From NCBI GenBank assembly GCA_035771165.1, contig JAWNZC010000232.1:2718001-2782000 (forward strand): 64,000 nt of DNA, read 5' to 3'. Origin of the DNA: Paragorgia papillata (Eukaryota; Cnidaria; Anthozoa; Scleralcyonacea; Coralliidae). Below are positions 25,142 to 63,212 of this stretch, piece by piece (the first letter of the stretch is position 1; every line of letters starts with the position of its first letter). Made by a program: the position numbers and the translations under genes. Under the pieces are notes generated by a model. It had not been told where the DNA came from and searched no databases. It saw only the letters and a list, made by a program, of their open reading frames with translations.

Positions 25142-26358
25142 TTTTTATTTTAAACAGCCTTGGAAAAAAGTTTGGCAAAGAAAATGTCGGCCTATATAGA
25201 GATATGACGGATTGGCCATTTTAAAGAACAAAACCGCGAGATTGGCAGACAAATCAAGAAAAGATCTACACAAAATTTTCGAACAACTCGGCCTCAAAAT
25301 AGCAGCCCAGACAAATTTACATGTGGTAAACTTTTTAGATGTTACTTTTGACCTTCAAAACAGAAAATACAAGCCTTATAGAAAGCCCAATGACGATCCA
25401 TTGTATGTAAACAAGCAATCAAACCACCCACCTAGCATTTTAAAACAGCTAACAACATTAATCGGCAAACGCATTTCCTTTCTCTCATCGTACAACACAA
25501 CATTTAAGGAATGCGCACCAATTTACCAAAATGCATTTAGACACAGTAATTTCAATCAGAAATTGAATTACACACAGCAAAACCCACAACCACGCAAAAA
25601 CCGACATCGCAATATCATTTGGTTCAATCCACCATACAACAAAAACGTAAGATCAAACATAGGACGCAGCTTTCTCAACCTAATTGACAAACATTTCCCA
25701 CCAGAAAACAAACTCCATAAAATTTTCAACAGAAATACAGTGAAAGTCAGTTACAGTTGCATGAACAACGCCAAGTCCACAATCATGAAGCACAAAAGTT
25801 AACGCACACCTACTTAAAAAAAATCGGGTATAAAATGAAAACACAGCCAGTTGCAACTGCAGGGATAAAAACAAGTGCCCACTTCATGGACAGTGCCTGA
25901 CTAATAGCATAGTATACGAAGCAGCTGTTTCCACAAGCGACATAAATAACACCAAACACTACATTGGCATGACAGCAAACAATTTCAAAGAGCGATACAG
26001 AAATCACACTAAATCTTTCCAAAACAAAAAATATTCAAACGAACCCGAAGTTTCGAAACACATCTGGGATTTAAAAGAAAAGAAACAAAATTTCAACATA
26101 ACCTGGTCTATTTTAAAACGCGCGCCTTCCTACTCTGGAGGACCAGGCAGATGCAATTTATGTTTGGAAGAGAAACTTTGTATCATGAAAGCAGACAAAC
26201 ACTTTTTACTCAATAAAAGATCAGAAATAATTTCGACATGCAGGCATAAAAATAAATTTAATATCAACAATCTAAACAACAATCAAAAACAAGGAAAGGA
26301 GTGTGAGAAATCCACCACCCACATGCACGCCCACCTTTCAACCAAAACCATTTGAGGG
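25142..26358 (+). pseudogene. Penelope-like element, RT end plus GIY-YIG endonuclease
   Basis: It begins in the RT domain at the same point that the minus copy covers at 24675 (inverted duplicate). A 2-base insertion breaks GLYRD|D. The frame 25216-25803 then reads through KSRKDLHKIFEQL, LDVTFDLQNRKYKPYRK and KQLTTLIGKRISFLSS to a stop at 25801. After a frame change, CPLHGQCLTNSIVYEAAV (near 25875) leads to the GIY-YIG motif HYIGMTANNFKERYRNH, followed by SKHIWDLK and GRCNLCLEEK, and ends at 26355. At least two lesions separate RT and nuclease, so the copy is dead as a single protein. It is followed by a hammerhead at 26473. Confidence 0.85.
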
Positions 26359-43877: not shown

Positions 43878-44474
43878 CTATTCCCACTTAACACGATGGT
43901 CATACTTCCAAGCGTGTTTGGCAACAGCAGACTTATCATGTTGGGCTTTTATGCAACATGTCTTGCTCTTTGCAACATCTCGTGCTCTTTCAGGCGAGTT
44001 GAAAGATTCCTTCCCGTTTCCCCGATGTAAACCAAGCCAAGATAAGCTATCCACGTCATCTTTATGTGTGAAAAGTACCTTGAACAATTTGTGTTGGCTA
44101 CTGTGAAATACCTTCATACCAGCACGATTTAGAATCCTCTCAATCTTGTGAGATGCTGGTCCGATGTACGGAAGAGAAAATGAAGGTGGTTCTTGCTGGG
44201 GCTGAGTACTCAGCTCCGGATGTACCGAACGTGTCATAGAAGCTTGAATCATCTTCTCAGGAAAACCACTGTTAGTTAAAACCAACTTCAGGTTATCTAA
44301 TTCATCCTGAAGATGTTCTTCGTCACAAATTGTTCGCGCTCGATGAACGAGAGTTTTGCACTCAGACGATTTGATGCTTGGATGGTGGAATGAAGTGTAG
44401 TTAAGGTATCTGTCAGTGTGTGTTGGTTTTCGATAAACAGTATGACTTAAAGTCCCATCTTTGCTTAGTCCCAT
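43878..44474 (-). pseudogene. Penelope-like element 2, C-terminal RT and GIY-YIG remnant
   Basis: The minus strand reads YRKPTHTDRYLNYTSFHHPS, then LVHRARTICDEEHLQDEL, LVLTNSGFPEKMIQ, YIGPASHKIERIL, FKVLFTHKDDVDSL, and later CCIKAQHDKSAVAKHAW. The GIY-YIG nuclease start is in another frame (LVYIGETGRNLSTRLKEHE, about 43965-44025), so two frameshifts interrupt the nuclease. The catalytic core of RT is absent (5' truncation). Terminal repeats flank it on both sides. Confidence 0.8.
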
Positions 44475-45814: not shown

Positions 45815-45936
45815 AGTCAGCGGTCATTATAATATGTGAGGATTATCTGATCAGCGCTCATCAAAGTCTTGTCAGCGTGGTCTGAGCTTGACTGGTTTTG
45901 CGCGCGCTATCTATTTAGTAGATATTTGGTCAGTGG
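45815..45936 (+). repeat. 114-bp tandem repeat, first unit
   Basis: Unit with CAGCGCTCATCAAAGTCTTG and TGAGCTTGACTGGTTTTGCG. The array continues at 47612-47960. The two parts are separated by the 45937-47611 insertion. Confidence 0.85.
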
Positions 45937-46085
45937 CAGGGCTCAAAATAACGTTTCATGTTACGCCGGTCATGGTGACCGGTCAGTTCCAATTGTGACC
46001 TTTCAAAGGCGATTTTTTGACCGGTCAAATTTCACGACGCCTCCCCCCCCTAAAAAAAAATAACCCCCAAAAAAAACAACCCCGC

Positions 46086-46450
46086 AACACAACACAATCA
46101 CAACACAACACAACACAACACAACACAACACAACACAACACAACACAACACAACACAACACAACACAACACAACACAACACAACACAACACAACACAACA
46201 CAACACAACACAACACAACACAACACAACACAACACAACACAACACAACACAACACAACACAACACAACACAACACAACACAACACAACACAATCACAAT
46301 CACAACACAATCACAAACACAACACAACACAACACAACACAACACAACACAACACAACACAACACAACACAACACAACACAACACAACACAACACAACAC
46401 AACACAACACAACACAACACAACACAACACAACACAACACAACACAACAA
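46086..46450. repeat. (AACAC)n microsatellite
   Basis: About 70 copies of a pentamer, with CAATCACA interruptions near 46292-46320, inside the TIR element. It gives artefactual Cys/Val/Leu or His/Asn/Thr/Gln frames. Confidence 0.97.
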
Positions 46451-46566
46451 ACATAGTTCACTTCAATATATATCAGTTAGGAAATTTTGTTTACATATAT
46501 GAATATACATACAATCAAATGCCATTTGCAAAAGGCAACTAAGTACTCTATTGATTCAGTTTGATA

Positions 46567-47274
46567 TTAAAACAACGTTATTTCATAAATGCGAGGATCA
46601 TCGCCCATCATCTTGGCTCTTTCTTGTGAACTTCTGCCTTCCGCCTTCAAATGCAAGTTCATTGCTGCTTTGTGGGGTTCACCGCGAGCGTGATCTACGG
46701 CGTTGCTGAGCTGCGTATTGGTGGAGCCAGTAAACGCCCAAACATAAGAAAAATTTCTCATTCCTTTGATTTTCTCTGCATACGTTTTACACACTGAACA
46801 ACAAAGGCTAGTAACGGAACCTGCTTTGTTGGAGTTAATCATCAACCAATCACTTGCCATGTATTGAGCAAGGTTAGTTGACTTCCAGTTATTGGCAGTT
46901 GAAGCTAACAAGTTTCTTGGTTTCTTGGACGAAGTGTCCTTTGGATTTTCGCTGGCTCTCTTCGTTGAAGGGTTTCTTTCGTTCTCTTTCTGGAAGGAAG
47001 GTTCCTTCTCGTTCACTTTCTTGGCAAAAAACGAAGACAAAGTAGCCTGTTTTGCTGACTTTGATGTACATGGCGCCGACGTAGCGGTAGGTGTCGCGCT
47101 TTCCTCATGTTTTCGTTTCTTTGAGCACTTCTCACATTTGCTAACTAAATAGCTTTCTTCACAGTAACCCGGCGTTATATCAGAACAAGCAATGGCGCAA
47201 ATATTACATATTGGAATATTGCATCCAATACATCGATATTTGATATCTTTCCAATGACAAACGTCGCACTCCAT
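46567..47274 (-). CDS. Zinc-finger protein with PIP box and TTF-like finger
   Basis: Intact 235-codon frame from ATG 47272-47274 (aaaATGGAG) to TAA 46567-46569. Residues 1-50 hold a Cys-rich finger: C3-x2-C6, C15-x2-C18, C23-x2-C26, C30, C38, C47-x2-C50. Residues 76-83 (QATLSSFF, then AKK) match the PCNA-interacting consensus Q-x-x-h-x-x-a-a exactly. A Lys/Ser/Glu-rich linker follows. Residues 137-205 hold ASDWLMIN, C159-x2-C162 and H195-x5-H201 with KGMRNFSYVWAFTGS, resembling the TTF-type finger at the start of ZNF862-like, hAT-derived proteins. The DDE catalytic region is missing. Likely nuclear, DNA-binding and recruited to PCNA; role unknown. It lies inside the TIR element 45937-47611. 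Confidence 0.75.
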   Translation of the reverse strand: MECDVCHWKDIKYRCIGCNIPICNICAIACSDITPGYCEESYLVSKCEKCSKKRKHEESATPTATSAPCTSKSAKQATLSSFFAKKVNEKEPSFQKENERNPSTKRASENPKDTSSKKPRNLLASTANNWKSTNLAQYMASDWLMINSNKAGSVTSLCCSVCKTYAEKIKGMRNFSYVWAFTGSTNTQLSNAVDHARGEPHKAAMNLHLKAEGRSSQERAKMMGDDPRIYEITLF

Positions 47275-47611
47275 TTTAAAGGTATTTGACACAACTACTG
47301 CATATACGGGCCTGCATTCAAGGATGTTTTGACGCGATTGTTTACATTACGATTTTTTGACAGTTTCCCGCCAAAAATGTAAATTCGAATAAAAAGTTCA
47401 ATAACCAAGAAAATTCTCACAAATTAACAAAATATGAAACGGGTCTACAACAGCACAACAACAATATTTTAAGTTCCTTCAAATGGAAGTTAATAAAATT
47501 AATTGCCAGTAATATGACAGGTCAAAATGACCGGCGTTATACAAATTTGACCGGTCACATTAAAATTTTGGCCGGTATTTGACCGGTGACCGGCCGTTAT
47601 TTTGAGCCCTG

Positions 47612-47960
47612 AGTGGTCACTCATTTATAATATGTGGGGATTATCTCAGCGCTCATCAAAGTCTTGTCAGCGTGGTCTGAGCTTGACTGGTTTTGCGCGC
47701 GCTATCTATTTATTACATATGTGGTCAGTGGTCACTCATTCTAATTTGTGGGGATTATCTCAGCGCTCATCAAAGTCTTGTCAGCGTGGTCTGAGCTTGA
47801 CAGGTTTTGCGCGCGCTATCTATTTATTACATATTTGGTCATAGGTCACTCATTATAATTTGTGGGGATTATCTCAGCGCTCATCAAAGTCTTGTCAGCG
47901 TGGTCTGAGCTTGATTGGTTTTGCGCGCTATCTATTTAGTAGCGCTGTGTGGTATGGTAA
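47612..47960 (+). repeat. 114-bp tandem repeat, remaining three units
   Basis: Three units at a 114-bp spacing (GTCTTGTCAG at 47661, 47775 and 47889). The last runs to the CSDE1-like exon. Confidence 0.9.
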
Positions 47961-48977: not shown

Positions 48978-51900
48978 ATGGCATATAATGACGAAAGCAC
49001 CGCATATAATGATGAAAGCACTGCATATAATGATGAAAGCACTGCATATAATGACGAAAGCACTGCATATAATGATGAAAGCACCGCATATAATGATGAA
49101 AGCACCGCATATAATGATGAAAGCACTGCAGATAATGATGAAAGCACTGCATATAATGACGAAAGCACCGCATATAATGATGAAAGTACTGCATATAATG
49201 ACGAAAGCACCGCATATAATGTTGAAAGCACTGCAGAAATGATGAAAGCACTGCATATAATGAAGAAAGCACAGCATATAATGATGAAAGCACTGCATAT
49301 AATGATGAAAGCATTGCATATAATGATGAAAGCACTGCATATAATGATGAAAGCACTGCAGATAATGATGAAAGCACTGCATATAATGACGAAAGCACTG
49401 CATATAATGATGAAAGCACTGCATATAATGATGAAAGCACTGCATATAATGACGAAAGCACTGCATATAATGATGAAAGCACTGCATATAATGACGAAAG
49501 CACTGCAGATAATGATGAAAGCACTGCATATAATGACGAAAGCACCGCATATAATGATGAAAGTACTGCATATAATGACGAAAGCACTGCATATAATGAA
49601 GAAAGCACTGCATATAATGATGAAAGCACTGCATATAATGATGAAAGCACTGCATATAATGACGAAAGCACTGCATATAATGATGAAAGCACTGCATATA
49701 ATGATGAAAGCACTGCATATAATGGTGAAAGCACCGCATATAATGATGAAAGCACCGCATATAATGATGAAAGCACTGCATATAATGATGAAAGCACGGG
49801 CATATAATGATGAAAGCACTGCATATAATGATAAAAGCACTGAATATAATGATGAAAGCACCGCATATAATGATGAAAGCACTGCATTTAGTGATGAAAG
49901 CACCGCAATATAATGATGAAAGCACTGCATATAATGACGAAAGCACTGCATATAATGATGAAAGCACTGCATATAATGATGAAAGCACTGCATATAATGA
50001 CGAAAGCACCGCATATAATGATGAAAGCACTGCAGATAATGATGAAAGCACTGCATATAATGAAGAAAGCACTGCATATAATGATGAAAGCAATGCACAT
50101 AATGATGAAAGCACTGCATATAATGACGAAAGCACTGCTATAATGATGAAAGCACTGCATATAATGATGAAAGCACTGCATATAATGATGAAGGCACCGC
50201 ATATAATGATGAAAGCACCGCATATAATGATGAAAGCACTGCATATAATGATTAAAGCAGTGCATATAGTGACGAAAGCAGCGCATATAATGATGGAAGC
50301 ACTGCAGATAATGATGAAAGCACTGCATATAATGACGAAAGCACTGCAGATAATGATGAAAGCACTGCATATAATGAAGAAAGCACTGCATATAATGATG
50401 AAAGCACCGCATATAATGATGAAAGCACAGCATATAATGATGAAAGCACTGCAGATAATGATGAAAGCACTGCATATAATGACGAAAGCACCGCATATAA
50501 TGATGAAAGTACTGCATATAATGACGAAAGCACCGCATATAATGATGAAAGCACTGCAGATAATGATGAAAGCACTGCATATAATGAAGAAAGCACTGCA
50601 TATAATGATGAAAGCACTGCATATAATGACGAAAGCACTGCATATAATGATGAAAGCACTGCATATAATGATGAAAGCACTGCATATAATGGTGAAAGCA
50701 CCGCATATAATGATGTAAGCACCGCATATAATGATGAAAGCACTGCATATAATGATGAAAGCACGGGCATATAATGATGAAAGCACTGCATATAATGATA
50801 AAAGCACTGAATATAATGATGAAAGCACCGCATATAATGATGAAAGCACTGCATATAGTGATGAAAGCACCGCATATAATGATGAAAGCACTGCATATAA
50901 TGACGAAAGCACTGCATATAATGATGAAAGCACTGCATATAATGATGAAAGCACTGCATATATAATGACGAACGCACCGCATATAATGATGAAAGCACTG
51001 CATATAATGACGAAAGCACTGCTATAATGATGAAAGCACTGCATATAATGATGAAAGCACTGCATATAATGATGAAAGCACTGCATATAATGATGAAAGC
51101 ACTGCATATAATGATGAAAGCACTGCATATAATGACGAAAGCACTGCATATAATGATGAAAGCACCGGATGATGAAAGCACTGCATATAATGACGAAAGC
51201 ACCGCATATAATGATGAAAGTACTGCATATAATGACGAAAGCACCGCATATAATGATGAAAGCACTGCATATAATGTTGAAAGCACCGCATATAATGATG
51301 AAAGCACTGCAGATAATGATGAAAGCACTGCATATAATGACGAAAGTAGCGCATATAATGATGAAAGCACTGCAGATAATGATGAAAGCACTGCATATAA
51401 TGATGAAAGCACCGCATATAATGATGAAAGCACAGCATATAATGACGAAAGCACTGCATATAATGATGAAAGCACTGCATATAATGACGAAAGCACTGCA
51501 TATAATGATGAAAGCACTGCAGATAATGATGAAAGCACTGCATATAATGAAGAAAGCACTGCATATAATGATGAAAGCACTGCATATAATGACGAAAGCA
51601 CTGCATATAATGATGAAAGCACTGCATATAATGATGAAAGCACTGCATATAATGGTGAAAGCACCGCATATAATGATGTAAGCACCGCATATAATGATGA
51701 AAGCACTGCATATAATGATGAAAGCACGGGCATATAATGATGAAAGCACTGCATATAATGATAAAAGCACTGAATATAATGATGAAAGCACCGCATATAA
51801 TGATGAAAGCACTGCATATAGTGATGAAAGCACCGCATATAATGATGAAAGCACTGCATATAATGACGAAAGCACTGCATATAATGATGAAAGCACTGCA

Positions 51901-54900
51901 TATAATGATGAAAGCACTGCATATAATGACGAACGCACCGCATATAATGATGAAAGCACTGCATATAATGACGAAAGCACTGCTATAATGATGAAAGCAC
52001 TGCATATAATGATGAAAGCACTGCATATAATGATGAAAGCACTGCATATAATGATGAAAGCACTGCATATAATGATGAAAGCACTGCATATAATGACGAA
52101 CGCACCGCATATAATGATGAAAGCACTGCATATAATGACGAAAGCACTGCTATAATGATGAAAGCACTGCATATAATGATGAAAGCACTGCATATAATGA
52201 TGAAAGCACTGCATATAATGATGAAAGCACTGCATATAATGATGAAAGCACTGCATATAATGACGAAAGCACTGCATATAATGATGAAAGCACCGGATGA
52301 TGAAAGCACTGCATATAATGACGAAAGCACCGCATATAATGATGAAAGCACTGCATATAATGACGAAAGCACCGCATATAATGATGAAAGCACTGCAGAT
52401 AATGATGAAAGCACTGCATTATAATGATGAAAGCACCGCATATAATGATGAAAGCACAGCATATAATGACGAAAGCACTGCATATAATGATGAAAGCACT
52501 GCATATAATGACGAAAGCACTGCATATAATGATGAAAGCACTGCAGATAATGATGAAAGCACTGCATATAATGAAGAAAGCACTGCATATAATGATGAAA
52601 GCACTGCATATAATGACGAAAGCACTGCATATAATGATGAAAGCACTGCATATAATGATGAAAGCACTGCATATAATGGTGAAAGCACCGCATATAATGA
52701 TGTAAGCACCGCATATAATGATGAAAGCACTGCATATAATGATGAAAGCACGGGCATATAATGATGAAAGCACTGCATATAATGATAAAAGCACTGAATA
52801 TAATGATGAAAGCACCGCATATAATGATGAAAGCACTGCATATAGTGATGAAAGCACCGCATATAATGATGAAAGCACTGCATATAATGACGAAAGCACT
52901 GCATATAATGATGAAAGCACTGCATATAATGATGAAAGCACTGCATATAATGACGAACGCACCGCATATAATGATGAAAGCACTGCATATAATGACGAAA
53001 GCACTGCTATAATGATGAAAGCACTGCATATAATGATGAAAGCACTGCATATAATGATGAAAGCACTGCATATAATGATGAAAGCACTGCATATAATGAT
53101 GAAAGCACTGCATATAATGACGAAAGCACTGCATATAATGATGAAAGCACCGGATGATGAAAGCACTGCATATAATGACGAAAGCACCGCATATAATGAT
53201 GAAAGTACTGCATATAATGACGAAAGCACCGCATATAATGATGAAAGCACTGCATATAATGTTGAAAGCACCGCATATAATGATGAAAGCACTGCAGATA
53301 ATGATGAAAGCACTGCATATAATGACGAAAGTAGCGCATATAATGATGAAAGCACTGCAGATAATGATGAAAGCACTGCATATAATGATGAAAGCACCGC
53401 ATATAATGATGAAAGCACAGCATATAATGACGAAAGCACTGCATATAATGATGAAAGCACTGCATATAATGACGAAAGCACTGCATATAATGATGAAAGC
53501 ACTGCATATAATGATGAAAGCACCGCATATAATGGTGAAAGCACCGCATATAATGATGAAAGCACCGCATATAATGATGAAAGCACTGCATATAATGATG
53601 AAAGCACGGGCATATAATGATGAAAGCACTGCATATAATGATAAAAGCACTGAATATAATGATGAAAGCACCGCATATAATGATGAAAGCACTGCATATA
53701 GTGATGAAAGCACCGCATATAATGATGAAAGCACTGCATATAATGACGAAAGCACTGCATATAATGATGAAAGCACTGCATATAATGATGAAAGCACTGC
53801 ATATAATGACGAACGCACCGCATATAATGATGAAAGCACTGCATATAATGACGAAAGCACTGCTATAATGATGAAAGCACTGCATATAATGATGAAAGCA
53901 CTGCATATAATGATGAAAGCACTGCATATAATGATGAAAGCACTGCATATAATGATGAAAGCACTGCATATAATGACGAAAGCACTGCATATAATGATGA
54001 AAGCACCGGATGATGAAAGCACTGCATATAATGACGAAAGCACCGCATATAATGATGAAAGTACTGCATATAATGACGAAAGCACCGCATATAATGATGA
54101 AAGCACTGCATATAATGTTGAAAGCACCGCATATAATGATGAAAGCACTGCAGATAATGATGAAAGCACTGCATATAATGACGAAAGTAGCGCATATAAT
54201 GATGAAAGCACTGCAGATAATGATGAAAGCACTGCATATAATGATGAAAGCACCGCATATAATGATGAAAGCACAGCATATAATGACGAAAGCACTGCAT
54301 ATAATGATGAAAGCACTGCATATAATGACGAAAGCACTGCATATAATGATGAAAGCACTGCAGATAATGATGAAAGCACTGCATATAATGAAGAAAGCAC
54401 TGCATATAATGATGAAAGCACTGCATATAATGACGAAAGCACTGCATATAATGATGAAAGCACCGCATATAATGATGAAAGCACTGCATATAATGTTGAA
54501 AGCACCGCATATAATGATGAAAGCACTGCAGATAATGATGAAAGCACTGCATATAATGACGAAAGTAGCGCATATAATGATGAAAGCACTGCAGATAATG
54601 ATGAAAGCACTGCATATAATGATGAAAGCACCGCATATAATGATGAAAGCACAGCATATAATGACGAAAGCACTGCATATAATGATGAAAGCACTGCATA
54701 TAATGACGAAAGCACTGCATATAATGATGAAAGCACTGCAGATAATGATGAAAGCACTGCATATAATGAAGAAAGCACTGCATATAATGATGAAAGCACT
54801 GCATATAATGACGAAAGCACTGCATATAATGATGAAAGCACTGCATATAATGATGAAAGCACTGCATATAATGGTGAAAGCACCGCATATAATGATGTAA

Positions 54901-57900
54901 GCACCGCATATAATGATGAAAGCACTGCATATAATGATGAAAGCACGGGCATATAATGATGAAAGCACTGCATATAATGATAAAAGCACTGAATATAATG
55001 ATGAAAGCACCGCATATAATGATGAAAGCACTGCATATAGTGATGAAAGCACCGCATATAATGATGAAAGCACTGCATATAATGACGAAAGCACTGCATA
55101 TAATGATGAAAGCACTGCATATAATGATGAAAGCACCGCATATAATGATGAAAGCACCGCATATAATGATGAAAGCACTGCAGATAATGATGAAAGCACT
55201 GCATATAATGACGAAAGCACCGCATATAATGATGAAAGTACTGCATATAATGACGAAAGCACCGCATATAATGTTGAAAGCACTGCAGAAATGATGAAAG
55301 CACTGCATATAATGAAGAAAGCACAGCATATAATGATGAAAGCACTGCATATAATGATGAAAGCATTGCATATAATGATGAAAGCACTGCATATAATGAT
55401 GAAAGCACTGCAGATAATGATGAAAGCACTGCATATAATGACGAAAGCACTGCATATAATGATGAAAGCACTGCATATAATGATGAAAGCACTGCATATA
55501 ATGACGAAAGCACTGCATATAATGATGAAAGCACTGCATATAATGACGAAAGCACTGCAGATAATGATGAAAGCACTGCATATAATGACGAAAGCACCGC
55601 ATATAATGATGAAAGTACTGCATATAATGACGAAAGCACTGCATATAATGAAGAAAGCACTGCATATAATGATGAAAGCACTGCATATAATGATGAAAGC
55701 ACTGCATATAATGACGAAAGCACTGTATATAATGATGAAAGCACTGCATATAATGATGAAAGCACTGCATATAATGGTGAAAGCACCGCATATAATGATG
55801 AAAGCACCGCATATAATGATGAAAGCACTGCATATAATGATGAAAGCACGGGCATATAATGATGAAAGCACTGCATATAATGATAAAAGCACTGAATATA
55901 ATGATGAAAGCACCGCATATAATGATGAAAGCACTGCATTTAGTGATGAAAGCACCGCATATAATGATGAAAGCACTGCATATAATGACGAACGCACTGC
56001 ATATAATGATGAAAGCACTGCATATAATGATTAAAGCAGTGCATATAGTGACGAAAGCAGCGCATATAATGATGGAAGCACTGCAGATAATGATGAAAGC
56101 ACTGCATATAATGACGAAAGCACTGCAGATAATGATGAAAGCACTGCATATAATGAAGAAAGCACTGCATATAATGATGAAAGCACCGCATATAATGATG
56201 AAAGCACAGCATATAATGATGAAAGCACTGCAGATAATGATGAAAGCACTGCATATAATGACGAAAGCACCGCATATAATGATGAAAGTACTGCATATAA
56301 TGACGAAAGCACCGCATATAATGTTGAAAGCACTGCAGAAATGATGAAAGCACTGCATATAATGAAGAAAGCACAGCATATAATGATGAAAGCACTGCAT
56401 ATAATGATGAAAGCATTGCATATAATGATGAAAGCACTGCATATAATGATGAAAGCACTGCAGATAATGATGAAAGCACTGCATATAATGACGAAAGCAC
56501 TGCATATAATGATGAAAGCACTGCATATAATGATGAAAGCACTGCATATAATGACGAAAGCACTGCATATAATGATGAAAGCACTGCATATAATGACGAA
56601 AGCACTGCAGATAATGATGAAAGCACTGCATATAATGACGAAAGCACCGCATATAATGATGAAAGTACTGCATATAATGACGAAAGCACTGCATATAATG
56701 AAGAAAGCACTGCATATAATGATGAAAGCACTGCATATAATGATGAAAGCACTGCATATAATGACGAAAGCACTGTATATAATGATGAAAGCACTGCATA
56801 TAATGATGAAAGCACTGCATATAATGGTGAAAGCACCGCATATAATGATGAAAGCACCGCATATAATGATGAAAGCACTGCATATAATGATGAAAGCACG
56901 GGCATATAATGATGAAAGCACTGCATATAATGATAAAAGCACTGAATATAATGATGAAAGCACCGCATATAATGATGAAAGCACTGCATTTAGTGATGAA
57001 AGCACCGCATATAATGATGAAAGCACTGCATATAATGACGAAAGCACTGCATATAATGATGAAAGCACTGCATATAATGATGAAAGCACTGCATATAATG
57101 ACGAAAGCACCGCATATAATGATGAAAGCACTGCAGATAATGATGAAAGCACTGCATATAATGAAGAAAGCACTGCATATAATGATGAAAGCAATGCACA
57201 TAATGATGAAAGCACTGCATATAATGACGAAAGCACTGCTATAATGATGAAAGCACTGCATATAATGATGAAAGCACTGCATATAATGATGAAAGCACCG
57301 CATATAATGATGAAAGCACCGCATATAATGATGAAAGCACTGCATATAATGATTAAAGCAGTGCATATAGTGACGAAAGCAGCGCATATAATGATGGAAG
57401 CACTGCAGATAATGATGAAAGCACTGCATATAATGACGAAAGCACTGCAGATAATGATGAAAGCACTGCATATAATGAAGAAAGCACTGCATATAATGAT
57501 GAAAGCACCGCATATAATGATGAAAGCACAGCATATAATGATGAAAGCACTGCAGATAATGATGAAAGCACTGCATATAATGACGAAAGCACCGCATATA
57601 ATGATGAAAGTACTGCATATAATGACGAAAGCACCGCATATAATGATGAAAGCACTGCAGATAATGATGAAAGCACTGCATATAATGAAGAAAGCACTGC
57701 ATATAATGATGAAAGCACTGCATATAATGATGAAAGCACTGCATATAATGACGAAAGCACTGCATATAATGATGAAAGCACTGCATATAATGATGAAAGC
57801 ACTGCATATAATGGTGAAAGCACCGCATATAATGATGTAAGCACCGCATATAATGATGAAAGCACTGCATATAATGATGAAAGCACGGGCATATAATGAT

Positions 57901-60268
57901 GAAAGCACTGCATATAATGATAAAAGCACTGAATATAATGATGAAAGCACCGCATATAATGATGAAAGCACTGCATATAGTGATGAAAGCACCGCATATA
58001 ATGATGAAAGCACTGCATATAATGACGAAAGCACTGCATATAATGATGAAAGCACTGCATATAATGATGAAAGCACTGCATATAATGACGAACGCACCGC
58101 ATATAATGATGAAAGCACTGCATATAATGACGAAAGCACTGCTATAATGATGAAAGCACTGCATATAATGATGAAAGCACTGCATATAATGATGAAAGCA
58201 CTGCATATAATGATGAAAGCACTGCATATAATGATGAAAGCACTGCATATAATGACGAAAGCACTGCATATAATGATGAAAGCACCGGATGATGAAAGCA
58301 CTGCATATAATGACGAAAGCACCGCATATAATGATGAAAGTACTGCATATAATGACGAAAGCACCGCATATAATGATGAAAGCACTGCATATAATGTTGA
58401 AAGCACCGCATATAATGATGAAAGCACTGCAGATAATGATGAAAGCACTGCATATAATGACGAAAGTAGCGCATATAATGATGAAAGCACTGCAGATAAT
58501 GATGAAAGCACTGCATATAATGATGAAAGCACCGCATATAATGATGAAAGCACAGCATATAATGACGAAAGCATATAATGATGAAAGCACTGCATATAAT
58601 GACGAAAGCACTGCATATAATGATGAAAGCACTGCATATAATGATGAAAGCACTGCATATATAATGGTGAAAGCACCGCATATAATGATGAAAGCACCGC
58701 ATATAATGATGAAAGCACTGCATATAATGATGAAAGCACGGCATATAATGATGAAAGCACTGCATGTAATGATGAAAGCACTGCATATAATGATGAAAGC
58801 ACTGAAAGCACTGAATATAATGATGAAAGCACCGCATATATAATGATGAAAGCACTGCATATAATGATGAAAGCACTGCATATAATGACGAAAGCACCGC
58901 ATATAATGATGAAAGCACTGCAGATAATGATGAAAGCACTGCATATAATGAAGAAAGCACTGCATATAATGATGAAAGCAATGCACATAATGATGAAAGC
59001 ACTGCATATAATGACGAAAGCACTGCTATAATGATGAAAGCACTGCATATAATGATGAAAGCACTGCATATAATGATGAAAGCACCGCATATAATGATGA
59101 AAGCACCGCATATAATGATGAAAGCACTGCATATAATGATTAAAGCAGTGCATATAGTGACGAAAGCACCACATATAATGATGAAAGCACTGCATATAAT
59201 GATGAAAGCACTGCATATAATGATGAAAGCATTGCACATAATGATGAAAGCACCGCATATAATGATGAAAGCACTGCATATAATGATGAAAGCACTGCAT
59301 ATAATGATGAAAGCACTGCATATAATGATGAAAGCACCGCATATAATGATGAAAGCACTGCATGTAATGATGAAAGCACTGCATATAGTGACGAAAGCAC
59401 TGCATATAATGATAAAATCACTGAATATAATGATGAAAGCACCGCATATAATGATGAAAGCACTGCATTTAGTGATGAAAGCACCGCATATAATGATGAA
59501 AGCACTGCATATAATGACGAAAGCACTGCATATAATGATGAAAGCACTGCATATAATGATGAAAGCACTGCATATAATGACGAAAGCACCGCATATAATG
59601 ATGAAAGCACTGCAGATAATGATGAAAGCACTGCATATAATGAAGAAAGCACTGCATATAATGATGAAAGCAATGCATATAATGATGAAAGCACTGCATA
59701 TAATGACGAAAGCACTGCTATAATGATGAAAGCACTGCATATAATGATGAAAGCACTGCATATAATGATGAAAGCACCGCATATAATGATGAAAGCACCG
59801 CATATAATGATGAAAGCACTGCATATAATGATTAAAGCACTGCATATAGTGACGAAAGCACCACATATAATGATGAAAGCACTGCATATAATGATGAAAG
59901 CACTGCATATAATGATGAAAGCATTGCACATAATGATGAAAGCACCGCATATAATGATGAAAGCACTGCATATAATGATGAAAGCACTGCATATAATGAT
60001 GAAAGCACTGCATATAATGATGAAAGCACCGCATATAATGATGAAAGCACTGCATGTAATGATGAAAGCACTGCATATAGTGACGAAAGCACTGCATATA
60101 ATGATGAAAGCACTGCATATAATGACGAAAGCACTGCACATAATGATGAAAGCACTGTATATAATGATGAAAGCACTGCATATAATGACGAAAGCACCGC
60201 ATATAATGATGAAAGCACTGCATATAATGATGAAATCACTGCATATAATGATGAAAGCACTGCATATA
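48978..60268. repeat. 11.3-kb satellite of a 21-bp unit with higher-order structure
   Basis: About 530 copies of CATATAATGATGAAAGCACT plus G. Common variants are GACG for GATG, ACCG for ACTG, and CAGATAATG. Five of six frames lack stops because the unit is seven codons and only one frame contains TAA/TGA, so frames over 1700 codons arise by chance. A rare marker with an extra G (CACGGGCATATAATG) recurs nine times (ending 49800, 50767, 51730, 52754, 53610, 54949, 55852, 56902 and 57889). This shows a higher-order repeat of about 0.86-1.34 kb. The array ends abruptly at both sides. Confidence 0.97.
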
Positions 60269-62444: not shown

Positions 62445-63154
62445 ATGCTGGTCCTTCGCTTAACAACACAAGGACGCCGATACTACGAGTTCCGTCGCGA
62501 AGCGTTAATTTCAACCAAAAACCACCAAGGCGGTCTGAACGACAACACTGACGAAGCTGAGGGCAAAATTTTTGAAGTTCCCAATTCACCTCGTTGTCCA
62601 GTTAAAACCATAGAAAACTTCATGAATCACCTTAATCCAAATCACGACGCTTTGTTTCAGCGGCCAAGAGAAATTTGTGCCAAGTTTCAAGTGGACAGTG
62701 ATGAAATTTGATTCTATAATTCCCCCCTTGGTACAAACACGCTCGGAAATCTACTCAAGACCATGTCGAAAGCCGTCGGAATAATCCCTCACCTAACAAA
62801 TCATTGCATTCGAGCTACGTCTGTCACAGTTTTGTCCGACCACGACATAGAGGCTAGACACATCAAGGCTGTCACTCATCACAAATCTGATCTCGCCATT
62901 CAGTCGTACAGCTCGAGGGCTTCTTTCCAGCAGAAGGAAAACATGTCGAATATTCTAAGTCGCTTCGTCTCGGGCGAGAGTAATCCTTCCATTCAGTCTA
63001 GTCGCTGCAGCTCGCTTACAGCAAGTCAGACCTTATGCAATCATCACCTGATGTCCAGCTTCGCAATGAAAACCAAGCCACAAATATCCAGATGCAAGCT
63101 CCCCAATCGTTCAATTTCCATGGCTGCACAGTGTCAATCTTTAACAACAACTAG
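62445..63154 (+). pseudogene. KIAA1958/Crypton-type tyrosine recombinase domain, near intact
   Basis: The frame opens at ATG 62445 and reads TTQGRRYYEFRREALISTKN, CPVKTIENFMNHLNP and ALFQRPRE. A TGA at 62709-62711 stands where Trp would precede [15 protein letters not shown]. The same frame then continues with [19 protein letters not shown], the catalytic H-x-x-R; a second His in [11 protein letters not shown]; and the nucleophile Tyr in QSYSSR. From about 63008 the conserved tail shifts frame ([29 protein letters not shown]) and ends at TAG 63152-63154. Two point lesions only. The N-terminal half is missing. Crypton recombinases cut and rejoin DNA through a Tyr-phosphate intermediate. Confidence 0.8.
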
Positions 63155-63212
63155 TACATCAGTCAAGCATGATCGTTTCCACTTTCCTGTTGAACTTTTG
63201 TTCCCTTGGTAG

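Follow-up and report, generated by a model that had tools for sequence, protein, structure and literature searches.

A 1.7-kb transposon-like element lies in the 64,000-nucleotide stretch of Paragorgia papillata DNA that was analysed here (the window), and it raises the question of why a mobile element should encode a small zinc-finger protein with a PCNA-interacting (PIP) box-like motif and no catalytic domain. A previous sequence-only reading suggested that the protein could be a domesticated or cargo factor. Our results favour a different origin, to which we assign a rough probability of 0.94: a non-autonomous hAT5-like copy that arose by internal deletion, was mobilised in trans and carries a neutrally drifting transposase stub.

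The element is 1,675 bp long (45937-47611) and has perfect 17-bp inverted repeats at its ends, with AGTGG on both sides. The sequence CAGGGCTCAAAATAACG begins at 45937 and its exact reverse complement ends at 47611 (17/17 bases), each occurring once in the window. This confirms the proposed 1.7-kb terminal inverted repeat (TIR) element with a 5-bp duplication. Palindromic TGACCGGTCA motifs are clustered near both element ends. The left cluster has full copies at 45976-45985 and 46018-46027 and a CCGGTCA at 45966, while the right cluster has a full copy at 47548-47557, TGACCGGT at 47580-47587 and partial copies at 47529 and 47588. These subterminal repeats are likely transposase binding sites. 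The positions of all features are collected in Table 1.

Table 1. Features of the element, its encoded protein and its insertion site (positions in the window)
Feature	Position	Strand	Remark
Interrupted target, a copy of the 114-bp tandem repeat	45816..45936	+	
Target site duplication, left copy	45932..45936	.	AGTGG
17-bp terminal inverted repeat	45937..45953	+	element 3' end in coding orientation
Subterminal TGACCGGTCA repeats, left cluster	45966..46027	.	putative transposase binding sites
(CAACA)n tract	46085..46453	+	inside the element, between the frame and the far end
235-codon frame	46567..47274	-	
Deletion junction	46591..46595	-	about 2.17 kb of transposase gene missing
zf-C17orf113-type zinc finger, residues 156-209	46648..46809	-	
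PIP-box-like motif QATLSSFF, residues 76-83	47026..47049	-	in a low-confidence linker
N-terminal cysteine module, residues 1-50	47125..47274	-	
Subterminal TGACCGGTCA repeats, right cluster	47529..47593	.	putative binding sites
17-bp terminal inverted repeat	47595..47611	-	element 5' end in coding orientation
Target site duplication, right copy	47612..47616	.	AGTGG
More copies of the 114-bp tandem repeat	47612..47938	+	source of the empty site

The insertion interrupted a copy of a 114-bp tandem repeat, for which at least 167 matches to 45816-45936 were found in the genome. When the flanks were joined with a single AGTGG, they agreed with two neighbouring repeat copies at 95.0% (47672-47790) and 94.2% over 120 columns. 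The neighbouring repeat had been said to give an exact empty site; the site is real and by eye the bases across its junction are the same, but over its full length the repeat copy shows 95% identity rather than 100%. Elsewhere in the window, 48981-60268 is an 11.3-kb array of the 21-bp satellite GCATATAATGATGAAAGCACT (about 538 copies). The plus-strand open frame at 62712-63212 may belong to a Crypton-type tyrosine recombinase, which its translation resembles by eye, and the frames at 25200-26355 (plus) and 43878-44474 (minus) resemble, also by eye, Penelope-like reverse-transcriptase and GIY-YIG parts.

The frame is intact and the QATLSSFF motif is present in its product, as had been read. 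A TTF-like finger had also been named; a finger match was obtained, but to zf-C17orf113, the nearest Pfam model (25.2 bits, under the 29.5-bit cut-off), and there was no TTF model among the three families at E≤10. The zf-C17orf113 model matches 28 of the 29 scanned relatives at E≤0.01, and the finger is probably a DNA-binding domain. The N-terminal cysteine module is found in close relatives; its weak Pfam likenesses, one to a B-box-like finger and one to a HIT finger, score under the cut-off. In the predicted structure of the 235-aa protein, residues 1-30 are fairly confident and residues 121-220, which hold the finger domain, are very confident (block means of pLDDT 96-98). The PIP-like motif, which matches Qxx[LIM]xx[FY][FY], falls in a low-confidence stretch with a short helical turn at 79-81, which we take for an accessible position. 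A PDB sequence search with this protein gave no match at E≤10, and the best fold match of its model in PDB had an E of only 0.63. A scan of viral contigs with A1 gave 7 pattern matches, none of which was confirmed.

The relatives of the protein indicate what it is a part of. A search of about 5.8 billion proteins with the window protein found 12 relatives, and 10 of them were aligned. Seven of these (P0002-P0006, P0008 and P0009) continue past the window stop in one common downstream sequence, P0007 and P0010 run on differently, and P0001 stops earlier. When the search was repeated with a longer query, 38 proteins were obtained, and a further search with the 849-aa relative P0017 yielded 97; both counts include the queries or parts of them. 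The names ZNF862-like or KIAA1586-like were borne by records from Hydra, Hydractinia, Paramuricea, Gigantopelta, Lineus, Branchiostoma and Nymphon. The closest named source was Dendronephthya gigantea, with an uncharacterised protein, which would suggest a cnidarian host, perhaps an octocoral. Only residues 1-226 of P0017 match the window (E≤1e-3). In the coding direction, none of the 42 listed alignments extends past 46576, and most of the long ones stop at 46600-46618, where the relatives continue. The window element therefore has no catalytic domain, as had been stated, and it is on this account a non-autonomous derivative.

The longer relatives have the hAT fold and the C-terminal dimerisation region of the hAT superfamily. 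Dimer_Tnp_hAT matches 19 of 29 relatives at E≤0.01; P0017 scores just above the cut-off (21.5 against 21.4 bits). The model of P0017 (mean pLDDT 78.3) gave only six PDB matches at E≤0.001, all of them Hermes transposase chains, the best with an E of 9.3e-08, a probability of 1.00 and a TM-score of 0.57 on the target. The dimerisation match and the Hermes-like model of this relative bear out the proposal of a hAT-type system. The same genome also contains a 3,962-bp relative (L034), which matches P0017 at 95.8% over 848 residues and has two mismatches in each TIR and a 5-bp duplication, GAAGG.

Searches for other copies with the same TIRs and for a full-length relative had been proposed as checks; such copies and longer relatives were found in the source genome (617.9 Mb, 473 contigs), where the 235-aa protein had 81 matches. 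Three long copies of 4.3 kb (L006, L007 and L008), at two insertion sites, are 96-98% identical to the window element in the first 234 bases and 97.5-97.8% in the ORF region. Beyond the ORF region they have about 2.17 kb of further transposase gene, followed by the 3' part of the window element. Read base by base, the window sequence jumps within codon 228 to the stretch behind the gene in the long copies, so the frame consists of hAT transposase codons 1-227 and then of 8 codons and a stop that are not transposase. Since the longer copies carry the same 5' half together with the rest of the hAT transposase, the catalytic part was deleted from the window copy. This junction was seen in every one of the 17 short copies examined.

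In the window's subfamily, no plainly intact element is present among the three long copies. A frameshift near residue 228 is common to the two that occupy one insertion site, and in the third the frame stays open for 528 aa before a break or an intron. The target duplication is 6 bp at one site (the copy on contig C337) and 5 bp at the other. Near their 5' ends, the long copies also have about 755 bp at element position 232-234 that is absent from the window and short copies. This extra stretch may be an intron or a nested insertion, and its presence in all three long copies indicates that they are sisters of the true parent and not the parent itself.

The short form is present at many sites. 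The coding-side end of the element matches at least 41 places in the genome, counting the window's own, with 40 of 411 first-look candidates scored in this search. Many of the matches listed are confined to the first 180-234 bases, so there are further derivatives. Among the fetched short copies, 16 have both ends; their TIRs are identical or have one mismatch, and the duplication is 5 bp in 13 and 6 bp in 3. Two pairs share a site, which gives 11 of 14 sites with 5 bp and 3 of 14 with 6 bp; L042, in which one end was seen, brings the number of sites to 15. One of the copies (L002, contig C206) is flanked by the same sequence as the window copy, and it is probably the other allele or a duplicated segment. 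The common junction, together with separate duplications at many sites, indicates that transposition spread a single deletion product. The ends shared with a longer coding element, the loss of internal coding sequence and its own insertion duplications make the element an internal-deletion derivative of a hAT element.

Conservation of the PIP-box-like motif was evaluated in two sets. Alignment A2 has 32 rows, of which one is the window protein and 31 are relatives, hand-chosen from 47 and mostly closer ones, so that its figures describe the near clade. All 30 rows that have a residue at the Q position have Q there, and L or I is likewise found in 30 of 30, while the first aromatic is F or Y in 25 of 30 and the second position is F in 23 of 30 and L in 6. 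The entropies of the Q, L, F and F anchors are 0, 0.65, 1.50 and 0.92 bits, respectively; the 37 other linker columns average 2.63 bits, and the most conserved among them is K73 (0.85 bits). The wider set comprised 134 sequences (133 fetched and the window's), 102 of them with the finger and 86 with at least 25 residues before it. The strict motif Qxx[LIM]xx[FY][FY] was found in 26 of these 86, against a mean of 0.2 and a maximum of 2 in 300 shuffles; a repeat with 500 shuffles gave a mean of 0.13 and a maximum of 2. After removal of near-duplicates, it was present in 20 of 61. The form with any residue at Q occurred in 41 of 86 (shuffle mean 2.98, maximum 9). With 26 of 86 against at most 2, a chance match was rejected, and the motif that had been singled out in the window is more than a chance string. 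Four relatives (P0029, P0031, P0032 and P0034) are without the cysteine module yet have the motif near their start, and the P0017-like loci of the same genome (L034, L035, L036, L037 and L039) have QSTLSSFF.

From its sequence, the PIP-like motif of the window protein may bind PCNA. The alternative that it does not bind PCNA but serves another role, in nuclear import or in dimerisation for instance, is a serious one, which we place somewhat below even odds. The motif lies in a Lys/Arg-containing linker, its strict form is missing from 60 of the 86 sequences, FF is replaced by FL in several close relatives, the motif reads QATLSSFL in one of the window subfamily's three long copies, and K73 is more conserved than the two aromatic anchors. 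On the other hand, the conservation in the linker is concentrated on the PIP anchors, and the enrichment also holds for the form with any residue at Q.

Whether the short frame is maintained was addressed with 15 independent copies; L002 and L019 were dropped from the 17 as they occupy the same sites as L001 and L010. Private changes per kb were 4.48 in the 5' flank (21 in 4,688 bases), 4.27 in the ORF (43 in 10,065) and 4.22 in the 3' flank (9 in 2,131), and the mean pairwise divergence was 1.40, 1.50 and 1.39%, respectively. Among the private ORF changes, the ratio of nonsynonymous to synonymous was 36:7 against an expected 32.2:10.8 (p=0.22), in a test built on 43 changes, which would miss weak constraint. 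The whole frame is kept in 3 of the 15 copies (L001, L003 and L004). A 30-bp ORF deletion is common to six sites (L009, L010, L011, L015, L016 and L017). In five of these the first stop falls at codon 127 or 128, so transposition seems to have continued in copies whose frame was dead. The short copies thus decay neutrally, with the ORF diverging as fast as its flanks. Neutral decay of the copies is one half of a condition, the other being a lack of PCNA binding, that the sequence-only reading had itself set for its refutation. The combination of purifying selection and lost mobility, by which a domesticated transposase is recognised, was not seen among the short copies.

A second short family of about 0.79 kb was found in the same genome, which has only the cysteine module and the motif QAQLSSFF, with about 92 encoded residues before its copies diverge. 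Its members (L045, L046 and L048-L067) have at least 26 places at 84% identity or more. Their TIR, CAGGCCTCGAAATAA, differs by eye from that of the window element in 2 of the first 15 bases. Both ends are present in 12 of 20 fetched copies, and in these the 8-bp duplication is exact in 8 and imperfect in 4 (by eye). Seven of the 12 two-ended copies have CTGTAGGC on their left, and this shared flank suggests that the copies multiplied inside another repeat. Its ends and relatives point to a hAT family. In the neutrality test of this family, for which 20 copies were used and same-site copies were kept in, private changes per kb were 8.82, 9.30 and 8.26, the nonsynonymous to synonymous ratio was 35:16 against an expected 37.1:13.9 (p=0.53), and no stops were found among the private changes, with 2.2 expected. 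The second family looks neutral as well. As no selection was seen, we read the retention of the same module in the two short families as a coincidence of 5'-end retention. A transposase-like cysteine module also heads frames of 443 and 455 aa at L043 and L044, with a very different remainder, and by eye no PIP motif was seen beside it.

These data bear on a possible repressor function, by which an expressed stub would compete with the full-length transposase for the element ends or for PCNA. Drosophila offers a precedent in the KP element, an internally deleted copy that is reported to act as a repressor (PMC12393704); the stub keeps a confidently modelled finger domain and the PIP motif, and the second short family keeps just the cysteine module and the PIP motif. 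However, neither family shows a sign of selection for the protein, and the frame is lost in 12 of the 15 independent copies of the window's family, which makes this explanation improbable. A host gene that recruited the 235-aa protein as a PCNA-tethered factor, or a cargo gene, has next to no probability left and was rejected, because the frame, intact and with recognisable parts in the window copy, lies between TIRs and target duplications in many transposed copies with a common deletion junction, decays neutrally, ends in 8 codons of DNA from behind the gene of the long copies, and has longer transposase counterparts in the same genome.

By the length of its duplications, the element fits the hAT5 type. 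The duplication is 5 bp in AGTGG of the window, in 13 of 16 short copies and in L034 (GAAGG). PMC9004415 and PMC12730594 describe 5-bp duplications of hAT5 in place of the usual 8 of the superfamily; PMC9004415 calls them unusual and places hAT5 in some invertebrates and fish, and Kapitonov & Jurka 2007 is cited for the group in PMC12730594. The element resembles hAT5 in its animal hAT-type transposase, short TIRs and mostly 5-bp duplications, but 6-bp duplications occur in 3 of 16 short copies and in the long copy on C337. A similar case is the Ds-del of maize, a non-autonomous element produced by a simple internal deletion of the autonomous hAT element Ac, as described in PMC3260210; its duplications are 8 bp, whereas here they are 5-6 bp, in an animal genome, with one deletion form at 15 sites or more. 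KP, too, has lost internal sequence and yet codes for a shortened protein (PMC12393704), but it is a P element with a reported repressor activity, whereas no function or selection was found here. ZNF862, C17orf113 and KIAA1586-like proteins share the finger model, and several relatives bear the ZNF862-like or KIAA1586-like name; these names, however, annotate whole proteins, and the window protein is a truncated transposon product.

Our preferred reading, a stub left by internal deletion, builds on the observed anatomy, common junction, insertion duplications, longer relatives and neutral decay. A parent element of 4.3 kb would have encoded a transposase of about 800-850 residues, with the cysteine module, the PIP-box-like motif, the C17orf113-type finger, a Hermes-like core and the hAT dimerisation region in this order. 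A single deletion removed about 2.17 kb of coding sequence and retained both TIRs and the subterminal TGACCGGTCA repeats. The full-length transposase would then have moved the short form in trans to at least 15 sites, the 114-bp repeat included, and the 235-codon frame is the leftover N-terminus of the transposase, now drifting neutrally. In the full-length enzyme, the PIP motif might dock to PCNA at replicating or repairing DNA.

Contacts of this kind are known for other mobile elements. PMC5371812 reports that a two-hybrid screen gave pogo as a partner of PCNA, with a PIP box that pogo has in common with Tigger and Lemi1; it further describes a PIP box of LINE-1 ORF2p that is required for transposition and clamp contacts for bacterial transposons such as Tn7, and for hAT elements it mentions only a putative PIP motif in Ac. 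Among the titles and opening abstract lines of the open-licence PMC papers covered, none dealt with a PIP box of hAT5 or ZNF862-type transposases, which does not prove that there is no such study. The motif described here resembles those of pogo, Tigger, Lemi1 and Ac as a PCNA-type motif in a DNA transposase (PMC5371812), but it is a conservation island in one hAT clade, N-terminal to a C17orf113-type finger. We tentatively suggest, as a possibility that we hold to be rather unlikely as it stands, that the transposases of an animal hAT5-like (C17orf113/ZNF862-type) clade have in their N-terminal PIP box a conserved and functional tether to PCNA, which couples transposition to replicating or repairing DNA, in likeness to the clamp contacts of Tn7 and LINE-1, and that short derivatives with the cysteine module and PIP motif, of which this genome has two separate families, could compete for PCNA as selfish inhibitors.

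The stub itself matters little, being the outcome of a textbook route to non-autonomous elements; the by-product of its analysis is the conserved PIP-like motif in its relatives. A hAT clade with such a motif would make it possible to ask whether eukaryotic cut-and-paste elements use PCNA to choose the time and place of their insertion.
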